This document shows positions 1 to 11,020 of a stretch of 64,000 nt of DNA, in pieces. Location: assembly GCF_003584685.1 (NCBI RefSeq), contig NZ_AP018549.1, positions 1,054,001-1,118,000 on the forward strand, in the 5' to 3' direction. Source of the stretch: Lactobacillus paragasseri (GTDB taxonomy: Bacteria; Bacillota; Bacilli; Lactobacillales; Lactobacillaceae). The translations under genes and the position numbers were made by a program. A model generated the notes under the pieces. It saw only the letters and a list, made by a program, of their open reading frames with translations, did no database searches and had not been told where the DNA came from. How positions within the stretch are numbered: position 1 is the first letter of the stretch; each line of letters opens with the position of its first letter.

Positions 1-1142
1 GTACATTTTTAAGTAATTTTTTATAAACTTGAGACGCATCTGCTATATCAATAATTCTATGTTTTTCCAAATATACTTCAGATGTCAACATCGCCATTCT
101 AAGATTACTATGAGATATTTCACAAATTATATCTAAAATATACTCATTTTTTATATTGTATACTTTTGTAATGCATTCTCTAATTTCTTCAGTATTGATC
201 GATAGTAAATTAATAGTATTTACTGAAGAGTATTCATCTACTTTATTTTCTATCTCTTCTTTTGCATAATCGCGTACTGTAATTAAAATCTTTACCTTTC
301 CAGAATTTAATTGTTGAACAAACGCTTTAAATATTTTCTCCAAATTTTCAATTTGATTTGCATCATCAAAAACAATTAATTTAGTAGAATCATCTGAAAA
401 TTCAACCTGAAGTTCGGATATTAGAGCATTAATATCATATACATTTCGTGCGAAAAAACTATTATTCAAGAAATTTCTTTTAGCAAATTCAAAGGCTAAC
501 CTCGTCTTTCCTACACCCGGTTTACCTGTGAGCACTATAATATTTTGTGTCTTAAAATATTCATTTATTTCTGCAAGCTCTTTTTCTCTATAAGCAAAAT
601 ATGAATTTAATTTTGATCCACTAAATTGCTTATTATATTCTTCTCCAAATTCACTAATATTTTTTAGTTGCCTCGGTGGTAATGCAAATCCTAAATATTT
701 ATTGGCTAAATCACGGTACTTATCTTGAATATATTTGGCTAATTCAAAGTTTGAAATAAATTTAAACTCTATTTTTTCTTTCTTATACTTTTCTGTTAAC
801 GAGTCGATGTATTCTATGCTTACGTTTGATGTAGCTGAACAGTAAATAATCTTTTTTACATTGTGTTTATTAATATTCAATTCATTAAGTTTTTTTAAGT
901 TGCTATTAATTTTTTGAATTAACCTACTCTCTTGTGATGTATATTCCATCAAATACACTTCACCATTATCATTTATAATATACGAATCTGGTGTTCCTTT
1001 AGTTGGTTTATTTTTACCATCTTCAGAACCAAGAGGATTTAATGTTCCTCCGAAAATACGAGATAAATATTCATCACAAAGTTTTTGAAAGGTTGTCGCA
1101 TCAATTTCTTTAATAGCATTTTCGATTTTATTTAATTCGTTC
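1..1142 (-). CDS. PD-(D/E)XK-like nuclease / STAND NTPase fusion (Avs-like), partial
   Basis: I translated this by hand from the ATG at 1142; it stays open to the window edge, so only the first 380 residues are visible. Residues 1-75 look like a restriction-endonuclease-like domain: a GTPD motif (Asp53) and, after a short hairpin, YLMEYTSQ (Glu67, Thr69), the D...ExT/K arrangement seen in PD-(D/E)XK nucleases fused to STAND proteins. An NTPase core follows: Walker A TGKPGVGKT (about 206-214), Walker B LIVFDD (about 256-261) and a VRD sensor (about 290-292). STAND proteins of this build (Avs family and relatives) sense phage proteins through C-terminal repeats and then activate an N-terminal effector; the sensor part lies outside the window. 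The gene sits directly after pglX, where pglZ is usually found. Family assignment is inference from motifs. Confidence 0.7.
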
Positions 1143-1173
1143 ATCCACTAAGTCACTTTCTTTCCATAAAAAT

Positions 1174-1179
1174 AGTATA
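1174..1179 (-). promoter_or_regulatory. Possible -10 box of the nuclease-STAND gene
   Basis: TATACT on the minus strand lies 32 bp before the ATG at 1142. No good -35 is visible; the nearest candidate (TTAAAT) has a short 15-bp spacer. It suggests a separate transcript from pglX, which has its own terminator just upstream. Confidence 0.3.
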
Positions 1180-1210
1180 CTTTCACAGAGATTCATTTAA
1201 ATTATAAACA

Positions 1211-1250
1211 AAAAAACTTATCTATATCATATTGATTAGATAAGTTTTTT
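1211..1250 (-). terminator. Terminator after pglX
   Basis: A perfect 14-bp inverted repeat (AAAAAACTTATCTA / TAGATAAGTTTTTT) with a 12-nt loop, starting 7 nt past the pglX stop codon and ending in a T run. The symmetric A/T tails would allow it to work in both directions. Confidence 0.75.
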
Positions 1251-1256
1251 CTAGAA

Positions 1257-4200
1257 TTATAACTTAGTCAACAACTTTTCTCCTTGTTGCAATTTGTCAT
1301 GATTAGCAAGAACACCATCATCAAGATCTAAATCTACTGGACTTTGAGATAAGTGATCTAAGACTTGATCATACTTAACTAATTCATTCATTTGCTTATT
1401 AAGAGTTGAAATAATCTTTCGATATTTGCTCTTAGCACTTGCCGTTGTTTCCTGATCTAATAAATCATTATCAATTTCGATTAAATCATTCATTGCCGGC
1501 TGCAAATCGTGAAGATATTGGCGAACCATTGCAAGTTGTTCTGGAGTGTAGCGATGTAAGTACATTAATGCCTTAAATCCCTTGTTTCTACCAGAATTAA
1601 ATTCCCAATAAATTGGACGTTTTTGATATATCTTAGCATGATCTTTGTAGAAATCATTGACGAAATAGTCACGTATAATCTGCTCTGCACTAACTCCACG
1701 TTCGAACTTCTTAGGATCCAAAGTTTGAGCAATGAAGTTCATATTATCCGTTAGATGATCTGAATCGAAAGACTTAGATAAGAACTCACGCAAACGAACA
1801 ATGATATCACGCTCATCATCGAAATATTGACGATCGGTTAAGAGAATAATGTTTTCTTTGTTGGGCTTGAAGATTGAGTAAAGGGATGCATTCCAGTCAC
1901 CGCCAGCATATGAAAGTCCATCCTGATCAAGTGAGTAACGGCCAAAGACACAACCGATAAAGTAAGATAGAAACGCTTTAATATCACGAACTTGATCTGC
2001 TTTACGGACAGAAACTTCCTTATCGTCTTCTTCTGGAGTTAATTCATTTTGTAAACCATAAAGATCAATAAAGATACGATTAAGCTCTTCTTCGTTGGCT
2101 TTAAGTTGGTTAAATCTATCTAAAGCTTCTTGCGACCAATTATTATAAGCTTGTTCTAAAGTTACAGCTTTATTTACTAATAACGGACTACGTTTGAAGT
2201 CCCATGATGTTTCAAATGCATCCCAATCTCGCCGTGATAACGCAATATTACTTTGAATAATTTCTTCACTATTGCCATAATTTAGTTTTAAAAGAGGGAT
2301 TGATTCAATATTACCGATTTGAAAATTTATAGTAGGATTCAGTATTGATAGAAGATATTGTCCGACTTTAGTATTCAAAAGCCCCATAATTATTTTTAAG
2401 TCTTGATCTTTATAAAATAAAGACATCCCACTCACATCATGGATACTACCTGGTAAGCGATAACGCATTGAAAACAGACTACTTGTAATTAATGACCAAG
2501 TAACAGCAGGTTTAAAATAAAAATCTGTATTTTGCGGTCTTGATCTTATTTTCCCCCTACTATCCACAAAATGTCGTATTTCATACCCATCATTTTGCCA
2601 ATTTACAACATAATCATAATTTCCATACCATTTACGATATGCTCCACCTTTATTATATGGAAACCACTTCTTTCTAGATTCAACCGATTCCTCAATATTA
2701 TTACAATGAAAACCTATTCTATTAATATTAACTTCAAACCATTGGCGCAAAAATCTATTATTATTAGCAGTGGCCAATCCTTGCTTAGCATTAACTATTT
2801 TTCCCAATGACGTTCCATTTTCAAAATCTCTAATTATATTCTTACTTGCCCAATAAGCAATAGGACTGCCAGGAATCTTATAAAAATTGTCTTGACTAAC
2901 TTGATATAAATCTTGTATATCTTTACCATCTACTATTTCTAGATACTTCTCTTCTTTCCCATCTTGTGAGCCATAGTCAACTAATCTTTCATAGCTACCT
3001 ACATAGCCATCATTTTTTCTTTCCTGCAAAATAAACGTGGTAGTTTGAACGACTTCACCACCAATTTCTTCAAATGCGCGTGTACCTAAATGCGCCATAT
3101 TGATAATTGTATGCTTTTGCAATTTCTTTCTTAACTTTTCAAAATTAGATAGAAACATCCAAGAATGCATAGTAACCATACCAATGTATCCATCATCTTT
3201 AGTCGTACTCACTAATTTTTCCATGAACACACTAAATAAATCAGCTTTTGAATCTGGATAATTTTTTTGGACATATTTTTTAAGGGGAACGTCCATCTTT
3301 CCACCGCCCATATATGGTGGATTGGTTACACTAACATCATATTTATTGTTAAGAACCTCAACAACATTCAAGATGCTTTCTAGTTCTTCTTTTACTGTAT
3401 CTGACAAAAGGTCAATTTGTCCTTCATCATTATCTGAACCTATTAGTTTTTTTAAACCACTAATATCAATATCCTTGTTAATATTAATAATCGAACCCAA
3501 ATCATCCCCATATTTAAAGACATCTAAAATACTTTTCAGATCAGATCTAGTTTTATCTTTATCTATGTTCGAAGAACTATCAATTATATTTTGATAGTTT
3601 TCAATATCGTATCTGGATCTTGGAACGTCAAAGAGATTTATACTATAATCTCTTCTAAATAAACGGCGATCTTTTTCTCTAGCCTTCATTAACAAAGCAA
3701 AATTTGATAGCTGATATGCTCGCTTGTCAATATCGAGTCCATAAAGATTATTCTTAAGAATTGAAGTTGCGGCATCCCTCTTGGAATATCCTTCCGACTC
3801 ATAAATCTGCATAAAAACATCAAAAGCATATACAAGGATGTGTCCTGAACCCATTGCTGGATCAACGAATTTAATATCTTTTACGTCTTTATTTGCCAAC
3901 TCTTTGTCTAAGACAATATTGTTTTGATCTGAAGCCGGCATATAGTATCTCCAGCCAAATTCATTTGCAATTTCGTTTTCAGAGCGTTCGTCTCCTCTAC
4001 TATGAAGAATATTTATCCAATATCTTCCCAAAGAATTTTCTACCATGTAACGAACAATCCAATCGGGTGTAAATAATTGAGTTACCGGTGCAATATCATC
4101 TGTTTGATACTTTTTCTTTTTAAATGCCGTATCTTTTAATTCACTATTGTAATATTGATAAAGCCATCCAATAATTTGAACTTGTCCTTCCTCATTTACA

Positions 4201-4862
4201 TCAAAATAACTCGCAGGAATTTCATTAATCAAATCTTGAATAACACCACGGTTATAATTAGGTGTAAACAGCAACTTCAAATAATCATTAGTTTTTTCAA
4301 ACAAACCCGGCAAAATATCACTTAATTCATCACATTGCTTAATAAAAAGCATTGCATAAAGCTTATCCATCAATTCAGGGGTTCTCTCAGTCAAAGCAGT
4401 CGAAATTAATTCTTTTTCTGAATCACTATAGCCACCTAAATCATCTTCAATCTCCATTGCTTCATTAATGATATCAGGTTCAGCCTTACCTTCTTCACTA
4501 GTTAAGACACTTACCCTACTTGGCAGATAATTGTTAACTTCCATAAATCTAATTGCGATAATTCTGTTGAACCAAGTGTAGGCAACTTCTTCAACAAAAT
4601 CATTAAAGACAGTCTTAGGGTCATCATCATATCCCCTATTTTTTAATTCATTAACAACATCTTTTCGCCAGCCAATTTGTTTACCAGTTAAAGCATTACT
4701 TTCATTATCGTCTACATAGTACTTTTTATCTTTAGTAGAAATAGAAAGTTCCTCATTAATCTTTTCATCTGTAATACCCAAATTAGCTAGCTGAACTTCC
4801 GTTGTATCTCTCAAACTTTTTCTAGCATTAATTGCAAATTTTTTGATTTTATTTTTGTCCAT
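1257..4862 (-). CDS. pglX: BREX-1 adenine-specific DNA methyltransferase PglX
   Basis: This is the N6-adenine methyltransferase of a type 1 BREX system, which marks self DNA and takes part in blocking phage replication. The 1201-aa length is typical of PglX. The SAM-binding motif FVDPAMGSGHIL is at about residues 333-344 and the catalytic NPPY motif (VTNPPYMGGG) at about 514-523, inside a COG1002-type methylase core. The C-terminal half (about 620-1200) is target-recognition and helical. It follows brxC on the same strand after an 87-bp gap with a terminator, and a TATAAT box at 4903-4908 may give it its own promoter. There is no sign of the inverted half-genes and recombinase that cause PglX phase switching in some lactobacilli. 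The start is the ATG at 4862. Confidence 0.93.
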   Translation of the reverse strand: MDKNKIKKFAINARKSLRDTTEVQLANLGITDEKINEELSISTKDKKYYVDDNESNALTGKQIGWRKDVVNELKNRGYDDDPKTVFNDFVEEVAYTWFNRIIAIRFMEVNNYLPSRVSVLTSEEGKAEPDIINEAMEIEDDLGGYSDSEKELISTALTERTPELMDKLYAMLFIKQCDELSDILPGLFEKTNDYLKLLFTPNYNRGVIQDLINEIPASYFDVNEEGQVQIIGWLYQYYNSELKDTAFKKKKYQTDDIAPVTQLFTPDWIVRYMVENSLGRYWINILHSRGDERSENEIANEFGWRYYMPASDQNNIVLDKELANKDVKDIKFVDPAMGSGHILVYAFDVFMQIYESEGYSKRDAATSILKNNLYGLDIDKRAYQLSNFALLMKAREKDRRLFRRDYSINLFDVPRSRYDIENYQNIIDSSSNIDKDKTRSDLKSILDVFKYGDDLGSIININKDIDISGLKKLIGSDNDEGQIDLLSDTVKEELESILNVVEVLNNKYDVSVTNPPYMGGGKMDVPLKKYVQKNYPDSKADLFSVFMEKLVSTTKDDGYIGMVTMHSWMFLSNFEKLRKKLQKHTIINMAHLGTRAFEEIGGEVVQTTTFILQERKNDGYVGSYERLVDYGSQDGKEEKYLEIVDGKDIQDLYQVSQDNFYKIPGSPIAYWASKNIIRDFENGTSLGKIVNAKQGLATANNNRFLRQWFEVNINRIGFHCNNIEESVESRKKWFPYNKGGAYRKWYGNYDYVVNWQNDGYEIRHFVDSRGKIRSRPQNTDFYFKPAVTWSLITSSLFSMRYRLPGSIHDVSGMSLFYKDQDLKIIMGLLNTKVGQYLLSILNPTINFQIGNIESIPLLKLNYGNSEEIIQSNIALSRRDWDAFETSWDFKRSPLLVNKAVTLEQAYNNWSQEALDRFNQLKANEEELNRIFIDLYGLQNELTPEEDDKEVSVRKADQVRDIKAFLSYFIGCVFGRYSLDQDGLSYAGGDWNASLYSIFKPNKENIILLTDRQYFDDERDIIVRLREFLSKSFDSDHLTDNMNFIAQTLDPKKFERGVSAEQIIRDYFVNDFYKDHAKIYQKRPIYWEFNSGRNKGFKALMYLHRYTPEQLAMVRQYLHDLQPAMNDLIEIDNDLLDQETTASAKSKYRKIISTLNKQMNELVKYDQVLDHLSQSPVDLDLDDGVLANHDKLQQGEKLLTKL

Positions 4863-4949: not shown

Positions 4950-7900
4950 CTACTTAAAGTCAATATTGATAATATCGCTATCCTCTAATTCTTTTTCAAG
5001 ACTTACTTTCAAAGCGTTTAAATATTTATCAATATCTGATTCACTCTCAATCTTCCAGCTATCTTCTGGAACCACATCATAAATCTTCTTAAAGATGGTT
5101 TTCTTAATTTTTACAGTTGGATTAGGTTGAGGTGAAGGCGAAACTTTAACCGTTTCTTTTTGCTTGTTATCTGGATTAGTGACGTCTTCTACAACATTCC
5201 TTGCAGCAGCTTCTTGTTCCTGTTGAGCCTTCTCAGCTAACTTTTGGCTTACTTCTGAAATTTTATTTCTTAATCTCTCATTAGCAGAATCAATAGCATT
5301 ATCTAAACTAATTAAATTCAAGAATGCATTTTCATCGCTACTTTCATTATATTGATCTGCACGATCACTTATCGATTTAAGAGTGTTGTTAACCTCAGCA
5401 AAAAGTTCATCGCTTTCTTTTTTAGGAAATTCTGCATCAGTTACTAAACTCTTAAGTCGATCATAGCTTTCATTAACCTTGCCTATGATTTTCTCATGGA
5501 CTTTATCCATGTCATCACTATACAAAGAAACGAATTCAGAATTCAAATTTTTCAATTTAGGAATAGAAATATTGAATTGATCCATATCTAAATACTTCTC
5601 AAGTTCATTAGCTATTTCCTTTAAATTTTCATCTTCAATAAATCCCTTAGCATGATTAAAACGTGCTAAATAGCTATTAGATTTTCTCCAAATTTTTTCT
5701 TGGTCACTAATATTACCAATATCACCATAAAATTGTAGAATAGCTTTATCTTCAACCTCATCACGCCAATCCTCTAAATCATCTAAGTGTTTAGAAATAA
5801 TTGAAAAGATTTGATCGCTATCAGGAACCATAGATATCTGTTTTAAGCTGTTAATTCCCTCATGTAGAATATCTTTACCAGGATATTTATTATCATGGTT
5901 GTAATTTAGTATATCTTCAAGAATTCTAACTTTTTGTTGTGTCTTCTTTTTAATCTCATCAGCTAATTGCTCAGAAGTGGCACCATCTGGAAGAACTAAA
6001 CTGACTTCTAAAACATCACTTGCAAATTCTTTGGCATCTTTCTTTTCGCGTGCAGAGATTTCTTTAACAGGCTTCATCGTCAATCTTGATAGATTACTCT
6101 TACTGATAAAATATCGCTGAATTGATTTTGGATCCTTACGCGCTTCATCTAAAGAGATCTTAGAATTATTGAAATAGATCTTAAGCTTACCATCAGAAAA
6201 TGCTTTAGCAACTAGCCAAGCAGTATCATTTGGCTTATAACCATACGGAATTTTACCAAAACGATCAACCACACTAGACAAGGAAATATTATTCATTAAA
6301 CCAGCTTGTCCATTTATATATTCGATTACCGCATTAATTGCTTGCTCATTATCAGTTAAAAGTACATCATTTTGATTACCCTTTAATACATTAAGAATAT
6401 CTTGATCAGATTTAACATCATCAATATATTGCAGATTTCGGTAATTAGCATCAATAATTGTCTTTTTAGCTTCAGCTAAACGACTAGTAAAGTTATTGCC
6501 CTTAGCTAATACATCGCCATCAACATAAATATCAGCATCAAGCAAATCATCTTCCAACATTTTTTGTGTATTACGCTCGATATCTTTTGCTTGACTGTTT
6601 CGATTGGCCGCAATATATCTAATCTTTTCATCAGATCTTGATTCCGGCTTTTGCATATATTCTTTGATTTTTTCTACTTGTCTGTAGTTCTCAATATACC
6701 GATCATCATCTTTTAAAACAACAATGATGTTACGGTTATCACCTGACTGCTGCTTATAATCAATTTCACGATAGTTTCCAGATTGCAGTGGGGATACGAT
6801 CCTAATATTCAAATCATTTTTTAGAGGATTCAATCCTGTTCCATCAATATACATATTAAATTCAAAAATATATTGATTTTTCTTTTTAGGATAAACATAC
6901 TTAGAATCTATTAAATTAGACGTAAACAAGTAACTACCTATTTCACGAACAATTTTTTGATCATCTATATCAATCGCATTAATTGCTTCATTAACTTCTT
7001 GTTCTGAATCAGTTAGGAACTCATATGTGTCAAGATTCTTTTGAATAAGATTCTGCCTAATTAAAACACTCAAAGCATCTTTAACCTTGGCAGTCAATTC
7101 TTGACGATCTTGATTAATGTCGTCCAAAAGCAGCGTAGTAATATTTTCAAGAGTTGATGGATAATTATCGACATAGCGAACCATAAATAAAACAGCCAAG
7201 ACTTGAATATTGAAACTATCTTTAGCTATATATGTATCACCCATTGCTTGATCAAATACAGCTTGGTGATCATGATTGAGGAATTCTTTCATTCCAATAA
7301 AGAAAGCAGAAAACGGAACAAGTTTGCCTAAATCATCATCTTCGTATCTTCTAGTAGCCTCTTGGAAAGTAGCTAGCATAGAACGTTCACCATCCGACAT
7401 ATGACTACCGCTAGCACCATGTTTACGGACAGCTGATAATACATTTTTTAGCAAACTAAATTGATATGGTATAAATGGATAATTATCAACAAAAGATTGA
7501 GAATCCTCATATTTTTCTCTTTTTATAGCATCACTGAAATTAATCTTATTGTTAATGCTATATTCATTTTGAGTAAATAGATCATCTAATTCTTCCTTTG
7601 CTAATGGCTTTTTATCCAATAAACGTTTCCGGATAACTTCATCAGCATTAGCAGAGCTCATTGAGATTAGAGTATTAAATCTACCCTGAATCTTTGAAAA
7701 ATCACGTTCATGTTTATGGAAATTGCCTGTAACTTCATCCATTTGTTGCTGAGAGGTTACTACAACCCAAGCACGTCCATGGCATTGAATTCCGAGCTGC
7801 TCAACAATAGTTTGTAAGTTAAGCATCTTGTTATCATCTTCACCGATAAACTGCCCTACTTCATCAGCCAAAAATACAAAATGATGGTTACCACCCTTTT

Positions 7901-8669
7901 TATCAAGATAGTCTTTTACCAATTTGGCAAATCCAATAGCATCAATACTGAACTTTTTACTTAGAAATTCATTGATATAATTTTGTGCATCTATTTCATC
8001 TAATGCACCAGAGTTAATTAATGCAGGTTTAATACGCGTATTCAACATAATCGCATATCTACTTCTGGTTTCTTCCCAAGAGGAGTGATTTTCCGGATCA
8101 AGATCTTGAAAAGCCTTCTTAAATGCATCATATTTTCCAATACTATCCAGCCAACGCTCCATATCAGCAACTTCTGCAATTGGAGAATATCCTAACTGTT
8201 CATTAAACACTTTAAGAAATACGTTTAAAATAGCACTACTATCATTGGCTGAATTGGAGTCTGCTTTAGAATCAATATTAAATAAGGCAACATCAGTTGA
8301 TACACTTGTAGCTTTTTCAATAGCATTAGATAAATGGTTATCATCAAATTTTCCATCTTCTAAAAAATAGTCTACTGCTTTACGTCCATCAACTATATCA
8401 TTTTCTAAAAGATAAGATAAAATTTTTAAGAAGTGTGATTTACCTGAACCAAAAAAACCACTAATCCATGCTCCCATTTTATCTGTAGGTACATCAATAC
8501 TTTTATCATAAGCATCAAAAAAGCGAGTAAAATCATTCTTTAATTCATCAGTAATAACATACTCTTCAAGTTCTTGTTTCTTAATTTTTTCACTATCTTG
8601 ACCAATTTTAATAACTCCGCGAATATCTCGATCAATATCTTTTTTGAAAATATTCTTTATTTTTGTCAT
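4950..8669 (-). CDS. brxC: BREX P-loop ATPase BrxC
   Basis: BrxC is the large ATPase of type 1 BREX (PglY-like), needed for phage defence. The Walker A motif GFFGSGKSH lies at about residues 71-79 of 1239, early in the protein as usual for the family. A Walker B-like FVFLADEVGQF segment lies at about 264-274. The C-terminal third is strongly charged and predicted helical, with a Gln/Glu/Ala-rich linker (around 1150) before a conserved C-terminal tail. The gene begins 11 bp after brxB and clearly belongs to the same transcript. No truncation or frameshift is seen. Confidence 0.93.
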   Translation of the reverse strand: MTKIKNIFKKDIDRDIRGVIKIGQDSEKIKKQELEEYVITDELKNDFTRFFDAYDKSIDVPTDKMGAWISGFFGSGKSHFLKILSYLLENDIVDGRKAVDYFLEDGKFDDNHLSNAIEKATSVSTDVALFNIDSKADSNSANDSSAILNVFLKVFNEQLGYSPIAEVADMERWLDSIGKYDAFKKAFQDLDPENHSSWEETRSRYAIMLNTRIKPALINSGALDEIDAQNYINEFLSKKFSIDAIGFAKLVKDYLDKKGGNHHFVFLADEVGQFIGEDDNKMLNLQTIVEQLGIQCHGRAWVVVTSQQQMDEVTGNFHKHERDFSKIQGRFNTLISMSSANADEVIRKRLLDKKPLAKEELDDLFTQNEYSINNKINFSDAIKREKYEDSQSFVDNYPFIPYQFSLLKNVLSAVRKHGASGSHMSDGERSMLATFQEATRRYEDDDLGKLVPFSAFFIGMKEFLNHDHQAVFDQAMGDTYIAKDSFNIQVLAVLFMVRYVDNYPSTLENITTLLLDDINQDRQELTAKVKDALSVLIRQNLIQKNLDTYEFLTDSEQEVNEAINAIDIDDQKIVREIGSYLFTSNLIDSKYVYPKKKNQYIFEFNMYIDGTGLNPLKNDLNIRIVSPLQSGNYREIDYKQQSGDNRNIIVVLKDDDRYIENYRQVEKIKEYMQKPESRSDEKIRYIAANRNSQAKDIERNTQKMLEDDLLDADIYVDGDVLAKGNNFTSRLAEAKKTIIDANYRNLQYIDDVKSDQDILNVLKGNQNDVLLTDNEQAINAVIEYINGQAGLMNNISLSSVVDRFGKIPYGYKPNDTAWLVAKAFSDGKLKIYFNNSKISLDEARKDPKSIQRYFISKSNLSRLTMKPVKEISAREKKDAKEFASDVLEVSLVLPDGATSEQLADEIKKKTQQKVRILEDILNYNHDNKYPGKDILHEGINSLKQISMVPDSDQIFSIISKHLDDLEDWRDEVEDKAILQFYGDIGNISDQEKIWRKSNSYLARFNHAKGFIEDENLKEIANELEKYLDMDQFNISIPKLKNLNSEFVSLYSDDMDKVHEKIIGKVNESYDRLKSLVTDAEFPKKESDELFAEVNNTLKSISDRADQYNESSDENAFLNLISLDNAIDSANERLRNKISEVSQKLAEKAQQEQEAAARNVVEDVTNPDNKQKETVKVSPSPQPNPTVKIKKTIFKKIYDVVPEDSWKIESESDIDKYLNALKVSLEKELEDSDIINIDFK

Positions 8670-8680
8670 ACTTATTATCC

Positions 8681-9271
8681 CTAATCTAATCTAAACGCTC
8701 TGTAATAATTTTGATCCTTAACTTCTCCAAACGCTCTTAAGCTCTTTTCATCATAATTACCCGGATAAAATAACACAACTGGATTTTCATCCAAAACTTG
8801 ATGCATCGTATTTAAAATTTTATGAGCTCTGATAATAGGATACGTTTTGCCTAGTCCTACTATAAATACAATACAATTTTCTGGTAATCTATCTTTTATA
8901 TACTGAACAATTAAATTATTATTTTCACTCATTTCTAGAATGTTATTAATCTGTGCAATTAATACGTCAAAGCCTTGATCTTTTTCAATTTCTTCAAGGA
9001 TTGGGATAGGATCAGTACCTGTATATTTTTTCTGATCCTTTAGCAAGGTCATCATAACATTATAAATATCAAAAACTTTTAGGTTCACTCTAGAAGCAAG
9101 AGCACTCTCTTTTATCTTAGCTATTTTTTTACGAACTTCTAATTCTTGATTAGCTGGATAGTCAAAAATCCAATATCCTACTTCATTAGACAGTCCCTTA
9201 TTTTTTTGAAACTTGGGATCAATCATTTTTTCTTTTAAATGTTCAAATCTAAGATTAATATCTTCCATCAT
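8681..9271 (-). CDS. brxB: BREX protein BrxB (DUF1788)
   Basis: This 196-aa protein has the size, sequence character and position of BrxB, a conserved BREX component of unknown biochemical role. The start codon overlaps the end of brxA, which indicates translational coupling, and the stop is 11 bp before brxC. Recognisable segments are VGYWIFDYPANQELEVR near the N terminus and CIVFIVGLGKTYPIIRAH near residue 133-150. No signal peptide or membrane segment is present. The call rests on family resemblance and gene order together. Confidence 0.9.
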   Translation of the reverse strand: MMEDINLRFEHLKEKMIDPKFQKNKGLSNEVGYWIFDYPANQELEVRKKIAKIKESALASRVNLKVFDIYNVMMTLLKDQKKYTGTDPIPILEEIEKDQGFDVLIAQINNILEMSENNNLIVQYIKDRLPENCIVFIVGLGKTYPIIRAHKILNTMHQVLDENPVVLFYPGNYDEKSLRAFGEVKDQNYYRAFRLD

Positions 9272-9870
9272 TATATTTCTCCTAGAGCAGCCAATTCAAA
9301 GTCTAATTTTTCTTCTTTCATAATAGTGATTAGTTGTGAATCTATTAATGGAAAAAGTAGCTTATCCTCATTAGATTTAACATTCTCTAACAATCCCCCA
9401 TCTCTCAAGAAAGTCTTCAAAGCTCCTTTAAGACGTTTAAAAGTATTAAGAGACCATTTTGCAACCTCAGGACTTTCGATTCTTTTCTGGTTAAGAAATG
9501 ATTCTACTTCATAATCTTGTAAAATATTTTCACGCATAATTACTTTAGGTCGATATACATCATAAACAAATTCATTAAGAATTTTACTTGTTAACATCAT
9601 AGATATTAGTGACACTATCTTTTGATTTGTAGGATTTAAAGATGGAAAAATATCTATAATAGTCTTTGGTAAAGCATCAATTCTGACAGATAAATTTCTT
9701 GAACAACGTCTAGCTCGAGATTTGCTAGACATTTTAAATATATTTTCTTTATCGCTAAGATGTTTTATTTCATCAATACTTTTTCCTGATTGATAAAGTT
9801 CAATAAATTGTGCAAACTCCGGCAACCAAATTGCATATGAAGCAATTCCACCATTATAAGTACGTGACAT
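9271..9870 (-). CDS. brxA: BREX protein BrxA (DUF1819)
   Basis: First gene of the BREX operon. The 199-aa length matches BrxA, a small inner-membrane-protein-annotated but soluble family (DUF1819) shown in other bacteria to bind DNA. The N terminus GGIASYAIWLPEFAQFIELY is typical. A GAGGGG ribosome binding site lies 6-7 nt before the ATG at 9870. It overlaps brxB by its last base. The upstream 160 bp hold a TATAAT-like box on the minus strand that may start the operon. Confidence 0.9.
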   Translation of the reverse strand: MSRTYNGGIASYAIWLPEFAQFIELYQSGKSIDEIKHLSDKENIFKMSSKSRARRCSRNLSVRIDALPKTIIDIFPSLNPTNQKIVSLISMMLTSKILNEFVYDVYRPKVIMRENILQDYEVESFLNQKRIESPEVAKWSLNTFKRLKGALKTFLRDGGLLENVKSNEDKLLFPLIDSQLITIMKEEKLDFELAALGEI

Positions 9871-9992: not shown

Positions 9993-10036
9993 AAAGAAGC
10001 ATGTCTTCACATCCAAGTGGAAGTCATGCTTTTATT
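9993..10036 (-). terminator. Terminator after the ATPase pseudogene
   Basis: Hairpin with arms AAGCATG...CATGCTT and internal CTTC/GAAG pairs; it overlaps the stop codon at 10032 and separates this locus from the BREX operon. It may be bidirectional. Confidence 0.6.
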
Positions 10037-11020
10037 CTCCGATATTATAAAATTCAGCAGCTTTTAGTAGAAATTCTTTCATAAACGGCAAAGAAAATGA
10101 AACCTTTCCGTATCCCGCTTCAATAATAACTTGACTGTCAATCAAACGCTGACGATATTGTGAGACATAATTAGAACTTTTATTCATTTGTTTTCTAATA
10201 TGACTTATTTCAACAACATCATTATCGCTTTTTGCCATAATCATTAAGAATTTTTGATCAGTTGGAGATAATTCAGAAATAATTTTTGTATAGGCATTCT
10301 TATAAAGATCATTTTTAAACAAAGGCAGAATGTCATCTATATCACTTTCAGTTATGTGATCAGTTGCATGCTTCCAAACATAGTATCCCAAATCTTGGAA
10401 TGCATAAGCATAGCCTTTAGTTAATTTTGTCATTCTCATTAAATTGGCTTCACTGATTTTTTTATTTGCACGTTCAAATGCCTTTTGATAACGGAATTGA
10501 ATATCAAAAGCGTCTAACGGTCCTAACGGAATTCGTCCACTTCTCAGAAGAAAAGTTAAAACGTCATTATTTTGAAGTTCTGATACATTTTTAGGTAATC
10601 CAGTCATCATAATGTTAATAGGATATTCTTTTAAGACCATTATTTGGTAAATAGATGCTAGATTTACTATTTCTGGTGTTTCTTTTACTTCATCAATAGT
10701 ATTTAAAGCCTTTTTTATTTTACTGCCGGCTTCTCGGTAGATAATTTGAATTAGAGTCTCTAAAAGATCGTTTGTCATAGCTAAATAAACAATAATCCAA
10801 TTATCCTTTTTTACTAAATTAGAAGTAATGTCAGCTAAAAGAGAAGTCTTTCCCACACCCCGCATACCATAAAATCATCGAAGTTTGATAAGGACCTGTC
10901 CCGTCTTCAAGAGATTCGACGATGTTCTCAACTAACTTGTCTCTTCCCAAATATATTTGCGGAACTTTACCAAAGTTAGGATCAAATGTTTTTTTAGTTT
11001 CGTATTTCTCACCTCTATTT
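10032..11020 (-). pseudogene. Frameshifted AAA-type ATPase with C-terminal winged helix
   Basis: An intact frame runs from 10865 to 10032 (277 aa) and begins inside the Walker A loop (GMRGVGKTSLL). The missing N terminus is readable upstream in another frame, about 10868-11005: FDPNFGKVPQIYLGRDKLVE followed by NIVESLEDGTGPYQTSMI. One extra T in the run at about 10871-10874 breaks the join; removing it gives TSMIYGMRGVGKTSLL. Upstream no start codon is in frame, and a second one-base change in an A7 run (10988-10994) would be needed to connect to a GTG. The C terminus (residues about 210-277) looks like a winged helix. The family is common in lactobacilli and of unknown role. It could be a true pseudogene or residual sequencing error. 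Confidence 0.7.

Follow-up and report, generated by a model that had tools for sequence, protein, structure and literature searches.

Type 1 BREX islands are known to carry second defence systems. Sections of one study report PARIS and BrxU within or together with such islands, in Salmonella D23580 and E. fergusonii, and count about 9000 loci with pglX and pglZ, of which about 7000 have intervening genes; about 5000 of these contain no known system (PMC11341690). Part of a second paper catalogues BREX auxiliary and backup nucleases (PMC12839542). An Avs-type STAND nuclease is not named among the BREX-associated genes in those parts of the two papers. Here we describe a STAND gene that lies between pglX and pglZ in Lactobacillus paragasseri, at the left edge of a stretch of 64,000 nucleotides (the window; positions 1054001-1118000 of the genome, G000). 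As in the islands with PARIS and BrxU, it would be a second defence system inside BREX, but PARIS is AriAB and BrxU is of the GmrSD type, whereas here the gene encodes a STAND protein. No prior report of an Avs-like or STAND gene in BREX was found in the open-access literature searched. A defence gene inside BREX is a known kind of arrangement; this member appears to be new, and its family appears unnamed in the libraries searched.

The closest described proteins by fold are Avs4 and Avs5. Avs4 (AVAST type 4; PDB 8dgf, with phage portal bound) has the same order of N-terminal domain, STAND NTPase and large C-terminal part, but its chain has 1541 residues compared with 1237 here, and the active-site motif here is non-canonical. 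Avs5 (Sir2-nSTAND3; PDB 9jap and 9nc9) likewise combines an nSTAND3 NTPase with an alpha-helical C-terminus, whereas its effector is a Sir2 NADase rather than a nuclease-type fold, and the TM-scores are low. Part of one paper names nSTAND3 in Avs5 (PMC12931631), and the term nSTAND is not used in passages of PMC7159879. Among the open-access papers listed for Avs4 together with Mrr, none dealt with Avs4.

We think it probable that the gene encodes an autonomous, single-gene antiphage protein of Avs-like type and that it entered a brxL-less BREX-1 locus, between pglX and pglZ, before three related species diverged. Within the window its open reading frame starts with an ATG at 1144 and runs to position 2 on the minus strand, where the left edge cuts it after 381 amino acids. 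In the stretch to the left of the window (L002; 18 kb were read leftward in G000, a single contig of 1,937,632 bases) the whole gene is intact at 1237 amino acids (L002:15431-19144) and ends 2.57 kb beyond the edge. It lies 112 bp from pglX (1257-4862), directly after it, as the original prediction, made from the sequence of the window alone, had stated; the N-terminal letters singled out there are residues 50-53 (GTPD) and 67-69 (EYT). The features of the gene are as follows.

2..1144, minus strand: predicted Avs-like nuclease-fold/nSTAND3 gene, N-terminal 381 of 1237 amino acids (open reading frame; remainder within L002:15431-19144)
680..1144, minus strand: N-terminal domain, approximately residues 1-155, with PD-(D/E)XK core order (predicted structure and alignment)
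47..598, minus strand: nSTAND3 NTPase, approximately residues 183-366 (Pfam PF20720 at 188-320; fold matches)
503..526, minus strand: Walker A motif GKPGVGKT, residues 207-214 (sequence)

The STAND-type NTPase core of the original prediction was confirmed. The Pfam family nSTAND3 (PF20720) matches residues 188-320 (E = 1.2e-9, 38.4 bits, cut-off 27.2), and all 24 family members compared also match the model (E up to 1). The Walker A motif is intact: G210, G212 and K213, together with the acidic Walker B pair D260 and D261, are invariant in all 17 aligned members. Based on the profile and on these two motifs, the protein belongs to nSTAND3.

The label "Avs-like" is supported by fold. For an AlphaFold model of residues 1-381, the top Foldseek match is Avs4 (8dgf, E = 1.1e-11), with Avs5 and Avs3 likewise among the first ten rows, and the alignment with Avs4 takes in the N-terminal domain and the NTPase in one pass (model residues 3-381). 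A full-length homologue (about 25% identity), modelled instead of the window's own copy, is predicted to be nearly all helical beyond the NTPase, and its best full-length Foldseek match is Avs5. The predicted build is thus that of Avs proteins, with an N-terminal effector fold, a STAND NTPase and a large helical C-terminus, the last judged in the homologue of about 25% identity; this helical part may act as the sensor. We write "Avs-like" and do not file the protein under Avs1-5 because no named Avs model was matched.

STAND proteins include regulators, and the maltose-system entry 8bob_C stands at rank 16 among the Foldseek rows of the full-length homologue model, which could point to an ordinary MalT-like STAND regulator or to another non-defence ATPase. 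We consider this very improbable, given that the gene lies in a BREX locus and that its family is scattered over unrelated places. An ordinary transcriptional regulator was rejected on three further grounds: no DNA-binding family was matched, the N-terminal domain is of nuclease type, and the best fold matches are Avs4 and Avs5.

The PD-(D/E)XK-like N-terminus proposed in the original prediction was borne out in fold and not in its canonical active site. In the AlphaFold model, assigned with DSSP, the domain has the alpha-beta-beta-beta-alpha-beta order of the PD-(D/E)XK core; this evidence comes from residues 1-381 jointly (DSSP and the alignment with Avs4), with residues 42-50 at pLDDT <50. 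Active-site residues were counted in 39 different sequences, after two of 41 rows whose first 300 residues repeat another row were dropped. D53 is invariant (39/39). Position 67 is E in 15 sequences, M in 21, N in two and T in one, and position 69, where the lysine of E-x-K is expected, is G in 22, T in 13, S in three, A in one and K in none. K46 and K78 are invariant (39/39), and K78 is located in the helix that follows the third strand. Position 82 has D in 38 sequences; only the window's own copy differs, with N82. Since the lysine of the D...(D/E)-x-K motif is absent throughout, we did not file the domain as a canonical PD-(D/E)XK nuclease. The profile searches that had been suggested as a check gave no nuclease either: no Pfam model matched residues 1-180 at E up to 0.1, no nuclease family passed its cut-off in the Pfam tables seen for 27 N-terminal domains, and a PDB profile search with the domain gave two chance matches only (E = 1.1).

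Such a pattern could also belong to an Avs-like sensor with a dead nuclease fold, in which the N-terminal domain serves for nucleic-acid binding, for oligomer contacts or for recruiting another protein. In 24 of the 39 sequences E67 is replaced by one of M, N and T, which would fit, as would the missing lysine and the lack of a Pfam nuclease family above cut-off. The invariant D53 and K78 and the nearly invariant D at position 82, in contrast, fit a working pocket with its lysine in the next helix, and E67 is retained in all three copies housed in BREX. We regard a dead fold as unlikely.

In cap-snatching viral endonucleases the lysine is displaced, to the helix after the third strand. PF15518 (L protein N-terminus), which we take to be the bunyavirus cap-snatching endonuclease, matches six of the 27 N-terminal domains (best E = 1.9e-4, 21.9 bits, below the cut-off of 27), and the five matches with known coordinates align at offsets of 20-28 positions. 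These matches are not independent because the members are related. The likeness has its differences: the matches are sub-threshold, the window's own domain has none, and the glutamate is missing in 24 of 39 sequences here. An L protein is absent from the best 50 of 1614 Foldseek rows against viral models, which name AAA-type ATPases, clamp loaders and proteins that are related to these or unnamed. Among the open-access papers listed, none fitted a cap-snatching effector with a STAND NTPase or with an anti-phage role. It is a doubtful idea that this is a new Avs-like type with a cap-snatching-like endonuclease (D53 as metal ligand, E67 variable, catalytic K78 moved to the next helix), which would possibly act on RNA and not DNA and would form a second, suicidal layer of the brxL-less BREX in this lineage.

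The surrounding locus is a type 1 BREX locus in which brxA, brxB, brxC, pglX and pglZ occur together. All five genes are named by PADLOC, and pglX, brxC and pglZ also by NCBIfam. In Pfam, the families matched by brxA, brxB, brxC and pglZ have BREX-specific names, and those matched by pglX are methyltransferase families. The gene order on the minus strand is brxA-brxB-brxC-pglX-STAND gene-broken DUF3644 gene-pglZ, followed by a short TetR-like frame.

9271..9870, minus strand: brxA, 199 amino acids (PF08849, 136.9 bits, cut-off 23)
8681..9271, minus strand: brxB, 196 amino acids (PF08747, 115.1 bits, cut-off 26.8)
4950..8669, minus strand: brxC, 1239 amino acids (NF033441, 1053.4 bits, cut-off 400)
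1257..4862, minus strand: pglX, BREX-1 adenine methyltransferase, 1201 amino acids (NF033452, 1374.5 bits, cut-off 500)
L002:14320-15162, minus strand: DUF3644 and EC042_2821-like gene, broken (Pfam; PADLOC candidate-defence match PDC-S19)
L002:11557-14049, minus strand: pglZ, 830 amino acids (PglZ type A, TIGR02687, 408.4 bits, cut-off 270.35)

The original prediction had the STAND gene standing where pglZ normally follows, and had proposed extending the contig leftwards to see whether pglZ and brxL come next. The gene does sit between pglX and pglZ, and pglZ follows two genes further on; it is displaced rather than replaced. Replacement of pglZ by the STAND gene is ruled out by the presence of pglZ, and a position outside a BREX locus by the pglX and pglZ flanks. 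The sixth type 1 gene, brxL, does not follow: PF13337 has no match in the whole of genome G000, and tblastn with two BrxL proteins found none in L002, in the window or in the stretches read of two related genomes (G023 and G024), with matches in two control loci. BrxL is present in 76% of type 1 BREX according to part of one survey (PMC12839542).

The same arrangement occurs in relatives. In a genus sample of 75 genomes, four match the STAND protein and three have a BREX-1 PglZ; absences are weaker evidence in the 15 genomes that fall outside the set with 90% completeness and 5% contamination. G000, G023 and G024 have both PglZ and a close STAND gene, in identical gene order, and the fourth match (G001, 26%) has no adjoining BREX gene. 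Among the three copies, dN/dS is 0.20-0.27 for the STAND gene, 0.11-0.14 for pglZ, 0.10-0.14 for brxC, 0.06-0.14 for brxB and 0.15-0.26 for brxA, and the corresponding dS values are 0.07-0.10 for both the STAND gene and pglZ and 0.08-0.09 for brxC. The STAND gene is under purifying selection, and based on these values it was inherited with the locus and kept, with a constraint looser than that on pglZ and brxC. In contrast to the intact STAND gene, the DUF3644 gene is disrupted in all three genomes, each time by different lesions, which rules it out as a live partner. The middle of PglX differs strongly between G000 and G023 or G024 (28-66% identity in 50-residue windows over residues 250-900, 84-100% on either side), which argues that the methyltransferase part was exchanged while the STAND gene stayed. 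G023 and G024 themselves differ in PglX mainly at about 650-850, which is likely the target-recognition part.

Several observations weigh against an Avs-like antiphage protein. The E-x-K lysine is missing in 39 of 39 sequences and the glutamate in 24, so the N-terminal domain could be inactive, and the window's own copy has N82 where the other 38 have D. The full-length match to Avs5 has TM-scores of only 0.16 and 0.21, Avs4 is absent from the first 50 Foldseek rows of the full-length homologue model, and most VIA rows of the fold matches cover the NTPase only (157-376). At the sequence level, the STAND protein has no PDB match at E up to 1, and Avs4 is not among the best 60 of 205 PDB rows for the family profile. 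The PADLOC and NCBIfam libraries both hold Avs models, and none is among the matches at E up to 0.01. Finally, the STAND gene has roughly double the dN/dS of pglZ and brxC.

Across the order, the STAND protein has matches in 18 of 395 genomes (three split or spurious loci, L021, L022 and L023, were excluded from the alignments). A phylum-wide search gave matches in nine of 398 genomes, convincing only in G000 and in G740, where the gene is in two frames. A wider family search returned at least 77 loci; 23 of these were used, and the 54 in which the match is to the NTPase or to small parts (L068-L121) were set aside. Among the matches listed, the family consists mostly of lone genes in Firmicutes, with others in Bacteroidetes, Proteobacteria and further groups. 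We compared 38 other family loci of 6.5-23.7 kb each, 15 from the order and genus and 23 from the wider search (L040 and L062 are the same place), and the genes lie at varied, unrelated places. The five core BREX proteins and two BrxL proteins found no match at these 38 loci by tblastn (E up to 1e-3; sensitivity for BREX of distant phyla is unchecked). The STAND protein has no match in the phage collection. In the plasmid collection 15 records match, 13 of them from Leptospira, and in none does one place cover 80%; a single locus among viral contigs matches residues 1-78 only.

We also surveyed 37 other BREX-1 loci from the 395 genomes of the order, leaving out G147, G219, G386 and G143, where PglZ is partial or weak; the stretches read reach at most about 5 kb past pglZ, and some end at contig ends. 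In 25 loci pglZ directly follows pglX, with no frame of at least 70 amino acids between them, in 11 something lies between, and in one pglX is past the contig end. Eight of the 11 occupied loci contain inverted or split pieces of pglX, seven of these with a gene of 317-391 amino acids, and a further locus (L176) has a frame of 193 amino acids. None of the 37 has the STAND gene. The comparison with related lactobacilli that had been proposed recovered the same insertion in two relatives and in none of these 37 loci of the order.

These distributions bear on whether the gene guards BREX. Such a guard would be linked in function to the brxL-less system; it would either be triggered by phage inhibition of BREX, as has been proposed for PARIS and Ocr, or take the place of the missing BrxL. 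BREX-1 PglZ and a close STAND gene occur in the identical three of 75 genus genomes, the gene is co-inherited with BREX, BrxL was not found in the G000 genome or in the stretches read of G023 and G024, and part of one study offers PARIS within Salmonella BREX as a parallel (PMC11341690). However, the three genomes are relatives sharing a single insertion and so count as one event, no core BREX gene lies near the 38 other family loci, and BrxL was seen in the stretches of only 11 of the 37 BREX loci without the STAND gene and not in the other 26. We find such a guard quite improbable, and continue to favour an autonomous Avs-like protein.

Two candidate transcription signals lie between pglX and the STAND gene.

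1210..1251, minus strand: A+T-rich terminator-like hairpin with U tract between pglX and the STAND gene (-16.0 kcal/mol, z -4.75, equalled by none of 200 shuffles)
1174..1201, minus strand: weak promoter-like site upstream of the STAND gene, TTTAAA-16-TATACT (9/12), one of several nearby (consensus match)

The terminator proposed before the gene holds up, with a hairpin stronger than in shuffles (z -4.75). It is missing from the list of the consensus terminator scan because it has too few G-C pairs; that scan found eight sites (shuffle mean 1.2), including a hairpin after the STAND gene (-13.8 kcal/mol, z -7.22, likewise equalled by none of 200 shuffles). The possible promoter of its own fares less clearly: a consensus site is present, but such sites are no commoner than in shuffles (65, shuffle mean 60.0). 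The hairpin is kept in G024. In a BREX locus that lacks the STAND gene (G449, L188), the 131 bp separating pglX from pglZ contain a hairpin with a U tract (-20.9 kcal/mol, z -4.09), which suggests that the STAND gene was inserted at a break already present between two BREX transcription units. In G023 (L024:10321-10532), a longer insert takes the place of the pglX hairpin; it has inverted ends, GTGTCCGGGAAAAAA ... TTTTTTCCCAGACAC, and resembles a small mobile repeat.

From the architecture we infer how an Avs-like protein would work here. The C-terminal helical part would bind a phage protein produced in infection, upon which the nSTAND3 NTPase would oligomerise; the oligomer would gather the N-terminal nuclease-fold domains so that nucleic acid is cut, and infection would be halted, probably at a cost to the cell. 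With its own terminator and probably its own promoter, the gene would be a separate unit, and BREX could keep working because the gene is at an apparent natural break between BREX transcription units. BREX and the STAND protein may then provide layered immunity. The locus is a concrete, intact and selected example of a STAND sensor-type protein within BREX, which is rare in the genus (three of 75 genomes), and it draws attention to an Avs-like family, so far unnamed, whose nuclease-type domain is unusual. If active, the protein would extend the Avs effectors by one whose catalytic lysine is displaced, and "BREX first, suicide second" would become testable.

Other observations concern the neighbourhood of BREX-1 loci. 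Upstream of brxA in the window (10032-10865) is a frame of 277 amino acids with a P-loop near its ATG; by eye, coding seems to start earlier in another phase, and the frame may be a broken ATPase gene. In the order, a PemK/MazF-type toxin gene lies between pglX and pglZ at L154:11800-12165, and L155 has a frame of equal length. In ten of the 37 loci (L152-L156, L158, L159, L166, L172 and L173) pglZ is followed by Cas9, identified by Pfam in L152 and by homology to L152 in the rest, and some of these loci continue with frames of about 300 and 108-119 amino acids, sized like Cas1 and Cas2. BREX and type II CRISPR-Cas are arranged back to back here, with CRISPR-Cas at the place expected for brxL.
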